From Candidatus Peregrinibacteria bacterium CG10_big_fil_rev_8_21_14_0_10_49_10 (GTDB taxonomy: Bacteria; Patescibacteriota; Gracilibacteria; Peribacterales; Peribacteraceae): 54,327 bases of DNA. A program made the position numbers and the translations under genes. Numbering within the stretch: position 1 is the first letter of the stretch; every line of letters begins with the position of its first letter. Shown here one piece after another: positions 9,758-49,156 of the stretch. The DNA is taken from positions 1-54,327 of the forward strand of contig PFDR01000065.1 in NCBI GenBank assembly GCA_002772545.1, read 5' to 3'. Below the pieces are notes generated by a model. It saw only the letters and a program-made list of their open reading frames with translations. It was not told where the DNA came from and did not search any database.

Positions 9758-9803
9758 TTGACCGTGCACAATCGTACACCTACTATGGTGGACGATTGTC
9801 CCC
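9758..9803 (+). promoter_or_regulatory. lexA promoter with two putative LexA operators
   Basis: TTGACC (9758-9763), 17 nt, TACTAT (9781-9786). Spacer holds GTGCACAATCGTACAC (9764-9779); GTGGACGATTGTCCCC lies at 9788-9803, just past the -10. Confidence 0.7.
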
Positions 9804-9814
9804 CTTGCATACCT

Positions 9815-10423
9815 ATGTCTCCCCTCACTCCTCATCAGCGCACAGTACTTACCTACATTGGTGAATTCCAACGGAAGCGCGGGTACTCACCATCACTTTC
9901 AGATCTCGCTATTGCCTTTGGCGTGCGCAGTAAAAACGCCATCGCCAAAGTGATTACAGTACTGGTCCGCGAGGGGCACATAGAAAAAGACCCCAAGGGG
10001 CGTATTAAAATTCTGGAAAGAGCAGAAGCACTGGATGCTCCCCAGCCTATGGTGCTGCCTCTCTTCGGTCCCATTTCTGCGGGCTTTGCTGCCCCTGTAG
10101 AAGAGCAGGCAGAAGAACTTGTAAAATTGGATGATTACCTTATACGTGATCAGGCAGCAACATTTTTACTGCGGGTAAGAGGTGACAGTATGATAGACGC
10201 CGGCATCTTCGAAGGAGATCTGGTGATTGCAGAACGTGGAAAGGAGCCCAAAGCCAATGAAGTGGTTGTGGGAGTTCTGGACGGAGAATTTACTCTCAAA
10301 CGCCTAAAGAAAGAGAAGGGAAAGTACTACCTGCAGGCCGAAAATCCTGAGTACCCGGATATGTATGCACTGGAAGAGCTGAAAGTAGCGGGAGTAGTGC
10401 GGGGAGTCATTCGGAAATACTAG
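9815..10423 (+). CDS. lexA: LexA repressor
   Basis: N-terminal wHTH 'LTPHQRTVLTYIGEFQRKRGYSPSLSDLAIAFGVRSKNAIAKVITVLVREGHIEKDPKGRI', S24 protease 'LLRVRGDSMIDAGIFEGDLVIAER...VVVGVLDGEFTLKRLKKE'. ATG at 9815 preferred because 9758 would overlap the promoter. Confidence 0.95.
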   Translation: MSPLTPHQRTVLTYIGEFQRKRGYSPSLSDLAIAFGVRSKNAIAKVITVLVREGHIEKDPKGRIKILERAEALDAPQPMVLPLFGPISAGFAAPVEEQAEELVKLDDYLIRDQAATFLLRVRGDSMIDAGIFEGDLVIAERGKEPKANEVVVGVLDGEFTLKRLKKEKGKYYLQAENPEYPDMYALEELKVAGVVRGVIRKY

Positions 10424-10427
10424 CTTC

Positions 10428-10892
10428 GAATTAAGAATTAAGAATTATGAATGAAGATTAGCATGGCACAAGTAGTACAAAATAAAACGGCTCCGCACAA
10501 GAAGATACAATCTTTCACAGATCTAGATGCTTGGAAAGCAGGGCATAATCTTGTCATTACCGTTTATGAAATTGCAAAAAAATTCCCAAAATGCGAAGAA
10601 TTTGAACTAGCAAAGCAGCTAAAAAGAGCAGTGACATCTATTACTTCAAATATTGCGGAGGGATTCAGTAGGCAGTCGTATAAGGAAAAAATGTATTTTT
10701 ATAGGATAGCGCTCGGTTCACTTACAGAGGTGCAAAATCAATTACTGATTGGTAGGGATGTACAACTGATTACTCAAGATATTTTTTATAGAGCGACTAA
10801 TCAGGCTGTTACTGCAAGTAAAATCATCAACGGACTCATCAAATCAACAGGGATGAGAAGAATGCAAGTTCCTAATTCTTAATTCCTAATTC
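10428..10892. repeat. Heptad-repeat locus B: inverted arms bracketing four-helix-bundle gene #1
   Basis: Left GAATTAA GAATTAA GAATTAT GAATGAA (10428-10455); right CCTAATT CTTAATT CCTAATT (10871-10891). Arms 10428-10446 / 10874-10892 are 18/19 complementary. Confidence 0.8.
10451..10882 (+). CDS. Four-helix-bundle protein (23S rRNA intervening-sequence / S23-like)
   Basis: 'LDAWKAGHNLVITVYEIAKKFPKCEEFELAKQLKRAVTSITSNIAEGFSRQSYKEKMYFYRIALGSLTEVQNQLLI' matches the family pattern (AWK...L...VY..T..FP..E...L..Q+RRA..SI..NIAEG). Alternative start 10463. Confidence 0.92.
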   Translation: MKISMAQVVQNKTAPHKKIQSFTDLDAWKAGHNLVITVYEIAKKFPKCEEFELAKQLKRAVTSITSNIAEGFSRQSYKEKMYFYRIALGSLTEVQNQLLIGRDVQLITQDIFYRATNQAVTASKIINGLIKSTGMRRMQVPNS

Positions 10893-10900
10893 CCTGCCTC

Positions 10901-12091
10901 GTGATAACGCATATTGATGCTGACGCTTTCTTCGCCTCCGTACTCCAGCGGAAGTACCCCAAACTCCGCGGAAAACCCCTTTTGGCACTGGGAATGGGCG
11001 GTGGGTGTGTTATTGCAGCCAGTTACGAAGCGAAAGCGATGGGCGTACGTACGGGCATGCGCCTGGTGGAAGCCCGCAAGCTCTGTAAGGGTGCGATAGA
11101 AATGCCCTCGGATTTTGAGGAAACGGCCGTCGCTTCGCATCAGATTGCTTCCATTCTCGGAGAACAATGTCCGGTACTGGAAAAAATGTCGGTGGATGAA
11201 TGGTTTGCGGATCTCAAATTATTGCAGGGAGGACTCCCAAAGAACCCGGGGCTGTGGGCACAGAGAATGCAGGAAGATATTGTTCTGCGTGTCGGCATTT
11301 CTGTCTCTGTCGGCATAGCACAGAGCAAATTGCTCGCTAAAATGGCCAGCGAGTACCGCAAGCCTGCAGGAGTAACAGTGGTAGAACAGAAGGACATCGA
11401 AGCATTCTTACGGGATCGTCCTGCAGCAGCTATTCCGGGCATTGGAAAAAGACGTTCTCTGCATGCCGAAGCCAATCGCTGGGAAACAGCATGGGATATT
11501 GCCACCGCAGACACTGAGATCATCAACCGGCTCTTCGGCAAACCCGGAAGGGAGATGCAGCTTGAGCTCCTTGGACACCGCCTCTATGAGGTAGAGACTT
11601 CTTGCACACCTCCCAAATCTATTTCACGGTGCCGGAGCTTTCGTGCCGACGAAAACCGGGGTGCCATCTTCTCCTCTCTGCTTGACCATGTGAGTTACAC
11701 CATCCTCAAAATGCGCCGCCATGGGCTCGTGTGCCGGGAAATAACAGTATGGCTGCGCAACGGTGAATATCGGCACAATGGCAGAAATGCCAGGCTCCCC
11801 CAGCCTATGGATACCGAAGAACAGATTTTGCCGTATGTGCGCCAGTGCTTCGGCCGTTTGTACGCCGAAACGCCCCGCTGTACGCAGACAGGACTTGCTC
11901 TCTGTGGGTTGCAGTCAAAGGGCGTACTGCAATACTCCCTTTTTGAAGACGTAAAACGCACGGGTTCCAGTGAACAGATTCAGGAAAAACTGGATGAACT
12001 CCACACACGTTTCGGAAGAATGTCGGTGACACGGGGGTCAGCCATACCGGCTAAAAAAGAGAGCAGGCCGCACCTCAATATTTTGCATTAA
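10901..12091 (+). CDS. dinB: Y-family DNA polymerase (DinB/UmuC-like)
   Basis: 'ITHIDADAFFASVLQRKYPKLRGKPLLALG', 'VIAASYEAKAMGVRTGMRLVEARKLC', 'EKMSVDEWFADL', 'GISVSVGIAQSKLLAKMASEYRKPAGVTVV'. GTG start. Confidence 0.9.
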   Translation: MITHIDADAFFASVLQRKYPKLRGKPLLALGMGGGCVIAASYEAKAMGVRTGMRLVEARKLCKGAIEMPSDFEETAVASHQIASILGEQCPVLEKMSVDEWFADLKLLQGGLPKNPGLWAQRMQEDIVLRVGISVSVGIAQSKLLAKMASEYRKPAGVTVVEQKDIEAFLRDRPAAAIPGIGKRRSLHAEANRWETAWDIATADTEIINRLFGKPGREMQLELLGHRLYEVETSCTPPKSISRCRSFRADENRGAIFSSLLDHVSYTILKMRRHGLVCREITVWLRNGEYRHNGRNARLPQPMDTEEQILPYVRQCFGRLYAETPRCTQTGLALCGLQSKGVLQYSLFEDVKRTGSSEQIQEKLDELHTRFGRMSVTRGSAIPAKKESRPHLNILH

Positions 12092-17873: not shown

Positions 17874-18024
17874 CCGCAAAGAAGCGTGCAGGTATTCTGG
17901 ATTGGAAGGATAACGTGAGTAAGAAGAGAGGAGGGGCATTATAAAAGTGCATGTGTTCTGCGGAGCAATAGAACAGGTTTTGTGGCTTACTGAAGAGGAT
18001 TTTTCCTAACCGTAGAAAGAAAAA

Positions 18025-18479
18025 GTGGGCAGTGGCAAGTGGGCAGTCTCGCAATAGATACAATAGTGATATGACAAGACTACCCTATCAAAAATTGCAC
18101 ATCTGGCAGAAAGGCATGCAGTTAACCAAAAAAATCTATGCCATAACCAAATTGTTGCCTGCTGATGAACGTTACGGACTCATATCGCAAATGAATCGAG
18201 CAGCAGTCTCTGTTCCATCGAATATTGCAGAAGGCAGTCAGAGAATAACAAAAGAAGGAATGGGGCACTATTTGCGCATCGCAAGGGGATCACTGGTTGA
18301 ATTGGAAACACAAACCCTTCTCTGCAGAGAATTATTTTCGGTATGCAGTGACAGCATCACACTGCCAATTCTCAATGAAATACAGGAACTAAAAAAGATG
18401 ATGTACAGTTTCCAGCAAAAGCTACAAAGCGACAGCGAGCAAGTTTGCACATAAGCACTGCCCACTTGCCACTGCCCAC
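18025..18479. repeat. Heptad-repeat locus C: perfect inverted arms bracketing four-helix-bundle gene #2
   Basis: GTGGGCA GTGGCAA GTGGGCA GT (18025-18047) and its exact reverse complement ACTGCCC ACTTGCC ACTGCCC AC (18457-18479), 23/23. Confidence 0.9.
18071..18454 (+). CDS. Four-helix-bundle protein (S23/IVP-like)
   Basis: 'LHIWQKGMQLTKKIYAITKLLPADERYGLISQMNRAAVSVPSNIAEGSQRITKEGMGHYLRIARGSLVELETQTLLCREL'. Confidence 0.93.
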   Translation: MTRLPYQKLHIWQKGMQLTKKIYAITKLLPADERYGLISQMNRAAVSVPSNIAEGSQRITKEGMGHYLRIARGSLVELETQTLLCRELFSVCSDSITLPILNEIQELKKMMYSFQQKLQSDSEQVCT

Positions 18480-34822: not shown

Positions 34823-36334
34823 ATGCATGCCCGCAGATGTTCCTACACCTTCCTTCTCAGTTTTCTTATTGGCATCTTTCTGTTGCAGTGGAACCAGCAA
34901 AAAATGTATCCGCCGGATGTCTGGGAACTCCTGCTCATGCTCGGAGCGCTGGGTGCGGTCTCCGTTTGTATACCGCAGACAAGGAAGATGGGAGGCATAG
35001 CCCTGGCCATGGCACTGGGCATTGCCGTGTCTCTGAGTACCGTGGAACGCACAACACATGTGCCAACGGCATTGACTGTAGATACCTATGCAACGGAGCA
35101 GTTCGTAAAAGTGTATGGAACCATTGCCGCAGAACCCGACAGAAGACCTATGCAAACTAAATACACCGTAGACGTACATCAGATTCAAACTGCATCGGGC
35201 ACCATTCTTTTTCCCGTACAGGGAAAGGTACTTGCTACGTACGGGAGCTGGCCACGCTTTGCCTATGGAGAGGATGTCGTAGTGCAGGGCACACTCCAGG
35301 CACCCCGTGCCATAGAAACCTTTCAGTACGACCGCTATTTGAGCCGCTATGGAGTCTATGCAGTCATCTATAGAGCGGGTATGCAGAAGAAACAAAGTGT
35401 CGCACCGAAGGATGACATCTGGGCAAGGTTCAAATCCTCTCTCTTTACACTCAAAGACCACTTTGAATACCGGATCAATACTCTGTATGCAGAACCACAT
35501 GCTTCATTTATGGCAGGTCTGCTTACAGGTTCCCGACGTGGCATACCCGATGCATTGCTGAAGGATTTCAATACCACAGGTCTCACACACATTATTGCTA
35601 TTTCCGGCTACAACATCACCATTGTTATCACCATGATTTCAGGAATGCTCTTCTGGTTGCCACTGAAGAAACGGTTCTTCCCCGCAGTTGCTGCCATCAT
35701 TGCATTTACGCTTTTTGTGGGAGCAAGCGCCGCTATAGTTCGTGCAAGCATTATGGGAATACTCGGACTGCTTGCACTGCAAACAGGACGCCAGTCTGAA
35801 GTGCGACTGAGCGTACTGTGGACCCTCTTTTTCATGCTCCTGTGGAACCCAAAGTACCTGTGGTACGACGCAGGCTTCCAGCTCTCGTTCCTTGCCGTGC
35901 TGGGGCTCATAGAAGTAGCTCCGCTGCTCGACCCCCTCTTTCAATACATTCCTCAGACACTCGGTATTCGTGAAGCACTGCAAATGACCGTATCCGCACA
36001 GCTGAGTGCGGTACCGCTCATTATTTTTTTGTTTGGCAGACTCTCCCTTATAGCACCCATAGCAAATCTCCTTGTTGCTCCTTTTATACCGCTTGCCATG
36101 TTGTTTGGATTCCTCGGAACGGTAGCAAGTTTTGTATGGTTCCCTCTGGGGCAAATGCTCTCCTATATTGCATGGGGATGTCTGGAGTGGATTGTAATCG
36201 TGGCACATCAACTTTCTAATATTCCCTTTTCATCGGTAGAACTAGGAAAGATAAGTAGTATAGTTATTGTGGGGTATTACTGCCTTCTCCTTCTTGTGTT
36301 GTATCGCCATCAGCGAATGGTTGCTTGTTACTAG
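34823..36334 (+). CDS. comEC: ComEC/Rec2-family competence membrane protein
   Basis: 'FMAGLLTGSRRGIPDALLKDFNTTGLTHIIAISGYNITIV' followed by a multi-TM ComEC domain; no C-terminal metallo-beta-lactamase domain. Confidence 0.9.
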   Translation: MHARRCSYTFLLSFLIGIFLLQWNQQKMYPPDVWELLLMLGALGAVSVCIPQTRKMGGIALAMALGIAVSLSTVERTTHVPTALTVDTYATEQFVKVYGTIAAEPDRRPMQTKYTVDVHQIQTASGTILFPVQGKVLATYGSWPRFAYGEDVVVQGTLQAPRAIETFQYDRYLSRYGVYAVIYRAGMQKKQSVAPKDDIWARFKSSLFTLKDHFEYRINTLYAEPHASFMAGLLTGSRRGIPDALLKDFNTTGLTHIIAISGYNITIVITMISGMLFWLPLKKRFFPAVAAIIAFTLFVGASAAIVRASIMGILGLLALQTGRQSEVRLSVLWTLFFMLLWNPKYLWYDAGFQLSFLAVLGLIEVAPLLDPLFQYIPQTLGIREALQMTVSAQLSAVPLIIFLFGRLSLIAPIANLLVAPFIPLAMLFGFLGTVASFVWFPLGQMLSYIAWGCLEWIVIVAHQLSNIPFSSVELGKISSIVIVGYYCLLLLVLYRHQRMVACY

Positions 36335-36838
36335 TTGCTTGTAACTTGTTATGGCTATATTTATTACATTCGAGGATATAAAGGCTTGGCAGGAAGGTCG
36401 CAAGCTCATGCAAACCATACGCCAATACTGCAATAGAGCTCGTGCCAAAAGAGACTTTGCATGGGCAGACCAAATCAGCAGATCCACTCTTTCTGTTATG
36501 GCCAATATTGCGGAAGGACATGATGCACTTAGTAAAAATGAATTCATTAGGTTTTTAGGATATGCAAAGCGCTCATGCGCAGAAACAAGATGTCACTTGT
36601 ACTATGGTTTTGATGCTGGATACATCACAAAAAAAGAATTCCAATCTACAGCTTTACAGGCAAAACAGATTTGCGCTCAAATTGCTAGCCTCATCAAGTA
36701 TCTAAGAAGTAGCAAATGAGCAACAAGTAACTAGTAACCAGCAACAAGTAACTAGTAACCAGCAACAAGTAACTAGTAACCACTAACCAGCAACTAGTAA
36801 CTAGTAACCACTAACCAGCAACTACTAAACAAGCACCA
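36318..36838. repeat. Heptad-repeat locus D: inverted arms bracketing four-helix-bundle gene #3, long right array
   Basis: Left TGGTTGC TTGTTAC TAGTTGC TTGTAAC TTGTTAT (36318-36352). Right: about 16 heptads from 36720, including three perfect 21-bp copies GCAACAAGTAACTAGTAACCA (36720-36782). Arms 36320-36336 / 36729-36745 are 16/17 complementary. Confidence 0.9.
36351..36719 (+). CDS. Four-helix-bundle protein (S23/IVP-like)
   Basis: 'FEDIKAWQEGRKLMQTIRQYCNRARAKRDFAWADQISRSTLSVMANIAEGHDALSKNEFIRFLGYAKRSCAETRCHLYYGFD'. Confidence 0.9.
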   Translation: MAIFITFEDIKAWQEGRKLMQTIRQYCNRARAKRDFAWADQISRSTLSVMANIAEGHDALSKNEFIRFLGYAKRSCAETRCHLYYGFDAGYITKKEFQSTALQAKQICAQIASLIKYLRSSK

Positions 36839-49088: not shown

Positions 49089-49093
49089 GATAT

Positions 49094-49156
49094 AGGGATT
49101 AGGGATTAGGGATTAGGGATTAGGGATTAGGGATTAGGGATTAGGGATTAGGGATT
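49094..49156. repeat. Heptad-repeat locus H: nine perfect AGGGATT copies in the csoR 5' leader
   Basis: 63 nt = 9 x AGGGATT (minus strand AATCCCT), ending 5 nt before the csoR ATG. Confidence 0.97.

Follow-up and report, generated by a model that had tools for sequence, protein, structure and literature searches.

The genes lexA and dinB in the window, the whole stretch of 54,327 nt that was analysed, are separated by a 465 bp unit (positions 10428–10892) that consists of a left arm, an S23 gene and an inverted right arm. This unit, here named element 1, and its neighbours are arranged as follows.

9758–10423, forward strand: lexA, the left neighbour (S24 peptidase and LexA DNA-binding domain)
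10428–10451, forward strand: left arm of element 1, GAATTAA/GAATTAT heptads, the G-rich strand pointing into the gene
10451–10882, forward strand: S23 (23S_rRNA_IVP, four-helix-bundle) gene, 143 aa, alternative ATG at 10463, PF05635 and TIGR02436
10869–10892, reverse strand: right arm of element 1, inverted heptads, with the stop codon inside the overlap
10901–12091, forward strand: dinB-type Y-family polymerase gene, the right neighbour (IMS domain)

The left arm begins after a gap of 4 nt from the lexA stop (10423), and 8 nt separate the right arm from the GTG start of dinB (10901). A sequence-only reading of this DNA had proposed an S23-like ORF within inverted heptad arms that were complementary at 18 of 19 positions, with the stop codon in the right arm, the start in the left array and a spacer of about 0.46 kb parting lexA from dinB. 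The arms proved to be even longer, with 22 of 24 nt complementary (92%), and the other points held: the stop codon (10880–10882) is within the right arm, the first possible start (ATG at 10451, the other candidate being that at 10463) sits on the inner end of the left array, and both neighbours of the 465 bp unit were confirmed by domain matches. The inverted-repeat score of element 1, 38, was not equalled in any of 5000 dinucleotide shuffles, the highest of which scored 29, and the heptad pattern has four matches at the locus against 0.02 expected over the whole window. The ORF belongs to both PF05635 (5e-33, 113.9 bits, curated cut-off 33.8) and TIGR02436 (3e-32, 111.2 bits, cut-off 24). When 10428–10892 was folded as RNA, a check that the same reading had suggested, the arm stem closed the whole element in the predicted minimum-energy structure, and the total folding energy was ordinary (z = −0.99).

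Avd, from diversity-generating retroelements, is a distant homologue of the element 1 protein (NF033474, E = 2e-4). Identification of this protein as Avd was rejected, as the match reached 21.7 bits against an 80-bit cut-off. The neighbouring genes are lexA and dinB.

Arms of S23 genes in this genome and elsewhere

A search of the contigs of this genome with PF05635 found nine S23 copies on seven contigs, three of them within the window. The other two elements in the window, and a solo array, are listed below.

18024–18047, forward strand: left arm of element 2, AGTGGGC/AGTGGCA heptads
18071–18454, forward strand: S23 gene of element 2, PF05635 7e-32
18457–18479, reverse strand: right arm of element 2, 23/23 complementary to the left arm
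36320–36351, forward strand: left arm of element 3, GTTGCTT/GTTACTA heptads
36351–36719, forward strand: S23 gene of element 3, PF05635 2e-27
36719–36828, reverse strand: right array of element 3, expanded to approximately 14 heptads
49093–49156, forward strand: solo perfect array (TAGGGAT)9, no S23 gene adjoining

The S23 copies of this genome are flanked by arrays of a short unit in inverted orientation, and the unit changes from copy to copy. The 7 nt units include GAATTAA, AGTGGGC/AGTGGCA, GTTACTA, GTTACTG and AATTGAT, and the longer ones include ACATGGTT (8 nt) and TAGCGTTAC (9 nt). In the ninth copy the inverted match is short, at only 11 nt. As the arms of element 2 agree at all 23 positions, including the order of the variant units, they behave as inverted copies of one another. 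The (TAGGGAT)9 array has no inverted partner nearby and is possibly the remnant of a gene-less element.

To place these copies in context, 233 S23 loci were surveyed, 97 of them from the clade of the window genome and the remainder from cyanobacterial plasmids, from Xanthomonadaceae and from named genomes that span many phyla and include Methanophagales archaea. The S23 loci taken from each genome are a sample, and neighbouring genes were called from open frames. Arms were scored as the best inverted match between the 200 nt upstream and the 200 nt downstream of the gene, with a threshold score of 26. Inverted arms reaching this score enclose 198 of the 233 S23 loci (85%), compared with 3.4% of 179 neighbouring ORFs (Mann–Whitney U, p = 3e-56), and 15% of the S23 loci have no clear arms. 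In 80 independent loci, the arms of different elements match one another far worse than do the two arms of one element (median 17 versus 34.5). Within arms, identity at lags of 7, 14 and 21 nt is 0.58, 0.56 and 0.54, against 0.32 in shuffled sequence, and the best period is 7 in 130 of the 198 armed loci, 8 in 32 and 9 in 27. At both ends the strand that reads inward is G-rich and C-poor (32% G and 11% C, a G:C ratio of 3:1). The architecture is conserved across the surveyed set. A weak excess of AAGCG/AAAGC next to the arms was seen as an inner motif in Lysobacteraceae only.

Relative to tandem neighbours, 129 S23 elements lie in the sense orientation and 26 in antisense, which suggests that host read-through drives expression or that antisense insertions are selected against. 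This bias would suit an RNA element resembling the intervening sequences (IVSs) of 23S rRNA genes, with arms kept for a stem that RNase III cuts to release the S23 segment from an operon mRNA, making the insertion tolerable; mobility would then be an infrequent event that the arms do not serve. We consider this account rather unlikely, and give it weight because the stem is predicted in the RNA fold and rRNA IVSs are cut by RNase III; in Coxiella, the IVS holds S23p in a 28 bp stem cut by this enzyme, with tandem heptads (GACAGAT) before the ORF, as in the S23 elements here (PMC4990558). However, imperfect arm pairs contain 258 sense-type and 336 antisense-type mismatches, with no excess of the G–U pairs that would be tolerated in sense RNA; thus the arms seem to be kept at the DNA level or by copying, and upkeep of the stem at the RNA level is disfavoured. 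The account also leaves unexplained the 7 nt period, the gene-less copies found genome-wide and antisense insertions such as that between nrdB and nrdA, and none of 238 S23 loci contained the 23S or 16S rRNA motifs searched for.

No match to S23 was found in 50,697 phage records, and carriage of the element by phages was rejected; just 32 plasmid records had a match.

The lexA junction and other sites in related genomes

The sequence-only reading took the unit to be an insertion into an SOS operon and pointed to the lexA–dinB junctions of relatives, where possession of the gene by all of them, between non-complementary flanks, would have argued otherwise. In the 30 lexA loci from relatives that were read, the gene is often absent, and arms are complementary where present. 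Orthologous S23 genes occur at seven of the 30, with arms that are complementary inside each element and differ in sequence between elements; the median matching score is 36 within and 15 across lexA-linked elements. The arm types of the S23 genes at this junction are GAATTAA, GTATGTC, TAGGGGT, GTATTAA, GAATRNN, GTATTGG and TTTTGAG, and one of these armed genes (L021) has an internal stop codon. At two of the 30 loci the S23 gene is truncated, and at no fewer than four (L013, L014, L025 and L033) the gene has been lost and the arms are left. Approximately nine of the 30 have nothing but a short lexA–dinB spacer of 30–70 nt. One genome of the same genus, G001, also has no S23 gene at the junction and carries an unrelated REP-like palindrome instead.

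As relatives have the gene with complementary arms, remnants or an empty spacer, we conclude that what separates the two genes here is an inserted unit whose arms are complementary. It is, however, neither recent nor confined to this genome. A tree of 241 S23 proteins groups the lexA-linked ones in a single clade (SH-aLRT 98), and most of these therefore derive from one old insertion that was inherited and repeatedly lost. Arms are turned over in place at this site: those of the old insertion have changed completely in sequence and yet have remained complementary. In the orthologues dN is approximately 0.35 and dS is above 1.2 or saturated, and the coding sequence is thus under constraint from purifying selection.

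Orthology and purifying selection would also be expected of a domesticated SOS gene, that is, an S23 protein partnering LexA and DinB in damage tolerance with arms that control its expression, and a different S23 subfamily is located between lexA and uvrC in G041. We give this explanation almost no credence, since the gene is absent or degraded at the junction in most relatives, including those of the same genus, the same S23 clade also occupies an ATP synthase operon and the eight other S23 copies of the genome are located elsewhere.

In L016 and L026, RAYT-like (REP-associated, Y1-type) transposase genes directly follow lexA, in the place taken by the S23 element in relatives, which makes the site downstream of lexA a hot spot shared by different kinds of element. 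REP-like palindromes have apparently been inserted at about one shared spot early in the dinB coding frame in L032, L034 and L038. Four genomes of the same class (G069, G076, G078 and G087) have an in-frame TGA in the lexA reading frame, which suggests that TGA is recoded there. From this trait of class relatives and from genome size, the window genome appears to be of a Patescibacteria/Gracilibacteria type.

Movement between operons is evident from the lexA-linked clade itself, which includes two S23 genes (L256 and L282) situated between atpD and atpC with arms of their own; a single genome, G048, carries both a lexA-site and an atp-site copy. Comparison of congeneric genomes revealed further changes. 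At the L009 site the element is missing from both sister genomes. The L007 site contains a short palindromic remnant in one congener and is empty in the second; at the L006 site the heptads have been retained and the S23 gene lost. At two sites, sister genomes hold S23 genes of unrelated subfamilies, a pattern indicative of hot spots or successive replacement. A site downstream of a carA-like gene in two congeneric species (L008 in G000 and L251 in G002) has S23 genes of unrelated subfamilies, and L008 is enclosed by an outer inverted repeat, GGTTCTTTG/CAAAGAAC. The sites compared gave no sign of a target-site duplication, an excision product or a transposition event, and the flanks of empty sites are just 66–75% identical, too diverged to define a target.

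Gene-less arrays and the S23 arm unit

S23 genes in Xanthomonadaceae have arms of the GGGATTC/GGGAATC type. A GGGAATC repeat family with at least 70 convergent pairs per genome was described in 2015 with no agent given (PMC4692102). Among 79 Lysobacteraceae genomes, 100 or more GGGANTS triplets were found in 16 of the 35 with S23 and in one of the 44 without it (p = 2e-6, uncorrected for phylogeny). Two S23 genes in this set have GGGACC arms instead, and a search for GGGACC triplets ranked exactly these two genomes first, with 61 and 40 hits. In the family of the window, further AGCTNTG arrays were present in all seven genomes that have an AGCTTTG-armed S23 gene and in four of 50 others (p = 1e-6, uncorrected for phylogeny). 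Thus, the prediction that the arm unit is also the unit of the genome-wide arrays held in two unrelated groups, and the gene-less copies are tied to the unit of the S23 gene.

Opposed pairs less than 600 bp apart in a 400 kb stretch of G159 point inward in seven of seven cases, and one gene-less unit occurs twice in G157, 85% identical and with different flanks. Irrespective of the unit, 39 period-7 arrays were counted over 400 kb in five S23-rich relatives and five in five S23-free relatives, a small comparison uncorrected for phylogeny; periods of 10–15 gave 16 arrays in each set. Arrays are present and S23 is absent in G105, G141, G008 and G010, and arrays can therefore persist without it.

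Hairpin repeats could also arise passively, with slippage and template switching at quasi-palindromes making and homogenizing the arrays at numerous intergenic locations, and S23 merely lying inside them or using them as terminator or promoter. Literature cited in PMC4692102 holds that heptads promote polymerase slippage, which is in line with this, as are three gene-less heptad pairs (L342, L343 and L344) that fit exactly around an intrinsic terminator hairpin located between converging genes. So is a gene-less site in two Xanthomonadaceae genomes, with flanks 97% identical, at which the left arm and spacer have been replaced and the right arm is unchanged. We nevertheless regard a purely passive origin as quite improbable, because it does not account for the enclosure of S23 genes so much more often than of neighbouring ORFs, for the identity of unit that ties an S23 copy to the arrays of its genome or for array numbers that follow the presence of S23.

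Relationship to known elements and proposed mode of spread

We favour the interpretation that element 1 is a copy of a widespread mobile element with S23 as its sole gene and inverted tandem arrays, usually of a 7 nt unit, as its ends, and that S23 probably acts on those ends. It is best read as an element without a recognisable transposase that is related to 23S rRNA IVSs and organized like RAYT/REPIN systems. The idea of mobility is older, as IVSs had already been proposed by earlier authors to be mobile elements or remnants of transposition (cited in PMC4990558).

Like the IVSs of Coxiella and Leptospira, element 1 has a gene of the S23p family inside a terminal inverted repeat able to form a stem. 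It differs in location, between lexA and dinB and not in an rRNA gene, and the elements described here are found in protein-coding operons, have an element-specific arm unit and are accompanied by gene-less copies genome-wide. The likeness to RAYT/REPIN (PMC3116915) lies in one gene copy with many gene-less inverted hairpin doublets, in the repeat beside the gene being the repeat that has spread and in singlets that resemble remnants; gene-less inverted doublets with the repeat of the gene copy were found in relatives and in Lysobacteraceae genomes. However, S23 is not a Y1/HUH transposase, and element 1 contains no Y1 tyrosine transposase (PF05635 was the only match). The S23 ends are tandem heptad arrays whereas those of RAYT/REPIN are single palindromes, and S23 is often present in several copies per genome. 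The GGGAATC heptads of Xanthomonas and the STRR-type heptads of cyanobacteria correspond to Xanthomonadaceae S23 arms in unit and convergent pairing, but the published description treats them as G-quadruplex repeats and attaches no gene to them (PMC4692102).

Two solved S23 homologues, 2gsc and 2rld, have five chains each. An S23 pentamer of this kind may bind the repeat array or hairpin of both arms and, together with host replication or repair enzymes, could copy the element and its gene-less derivatives to new sites and swap elements at old ones. The S23 gene would be expressed by host read-through, with the element mostly sense-wise inside operons, and the same kind of unit inside a 23S rRNA gene would be the known IVS. 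Several findings count against the mobile-element interpretation. S23 has no known catalytic motif, and the 129:26 sense bias is not what plain DNA transposition would lead one to expect. Neither a transposition event nor a target duplication was seen at the compared sites, some S23 loci have no clear arms and some S23-free genomes have arrays.

A crystal structure of an S23/IVP protein has been available since 2006, and to our knowledge no function has been assigned to these proteins. Our literature search on S23 and repeats found nothing relevant, in a scope that excluded preprints and subscription journals, where an earlier description is possible. The Xanthomonas and Nostoc heptad families have been catalogued without an agent, and the searched text of that source makes no link from S23 to heptad repeats (PMC4692102). 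As far as this literature shows, three findings are new: inverted heptad ends are a general feature, they turn over at orthologous sites, and the unit in the S23 arms is linked to heptamer families found genome-wide. The link makes S23 and the heptads testable together, with one small gene per genome, a defined DNA unit and the prediction that the units of arms and genome-wide arrays coincide. It also supplies a frame for why S23 genes split lexA–dinB, atpD–atpC, nrdB–nrdA and cas loci. The package, present in bacteria and archaea with a repeat that nearly always differs by copy, looks like a little-known kind of mobile DNA and could account for the abundance of seven-letter repeats in bacterial genomes. 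More tentatively, and with slightly less than even confidence, S23 proteins may define a large bacterial and archaeal class of transposase-less mobile DNA. Such elements would build inverted ends of short repeats and spread them, would have gene-less derivatives in many genomes, would count rRNA IVSs among their special cases and would be the chief origin of heptamers, the most abundant intergenic tandem repeats of prokaryotes.

S23 genes in cas loci were noticed earlier (PMC3936711). Plasmids of Pseudanabaena (L180) and Anabaena (L183) each have a type I-D CRISPR locus in which an S23 gene is found between cas6 and cas4; the two genes have different arms and a shared arm architecture, and their proteins do not group as sisters in the tree. 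On a Nostoc plasmid (L181), an S23 element lies antisense between nrdB and nrdA.
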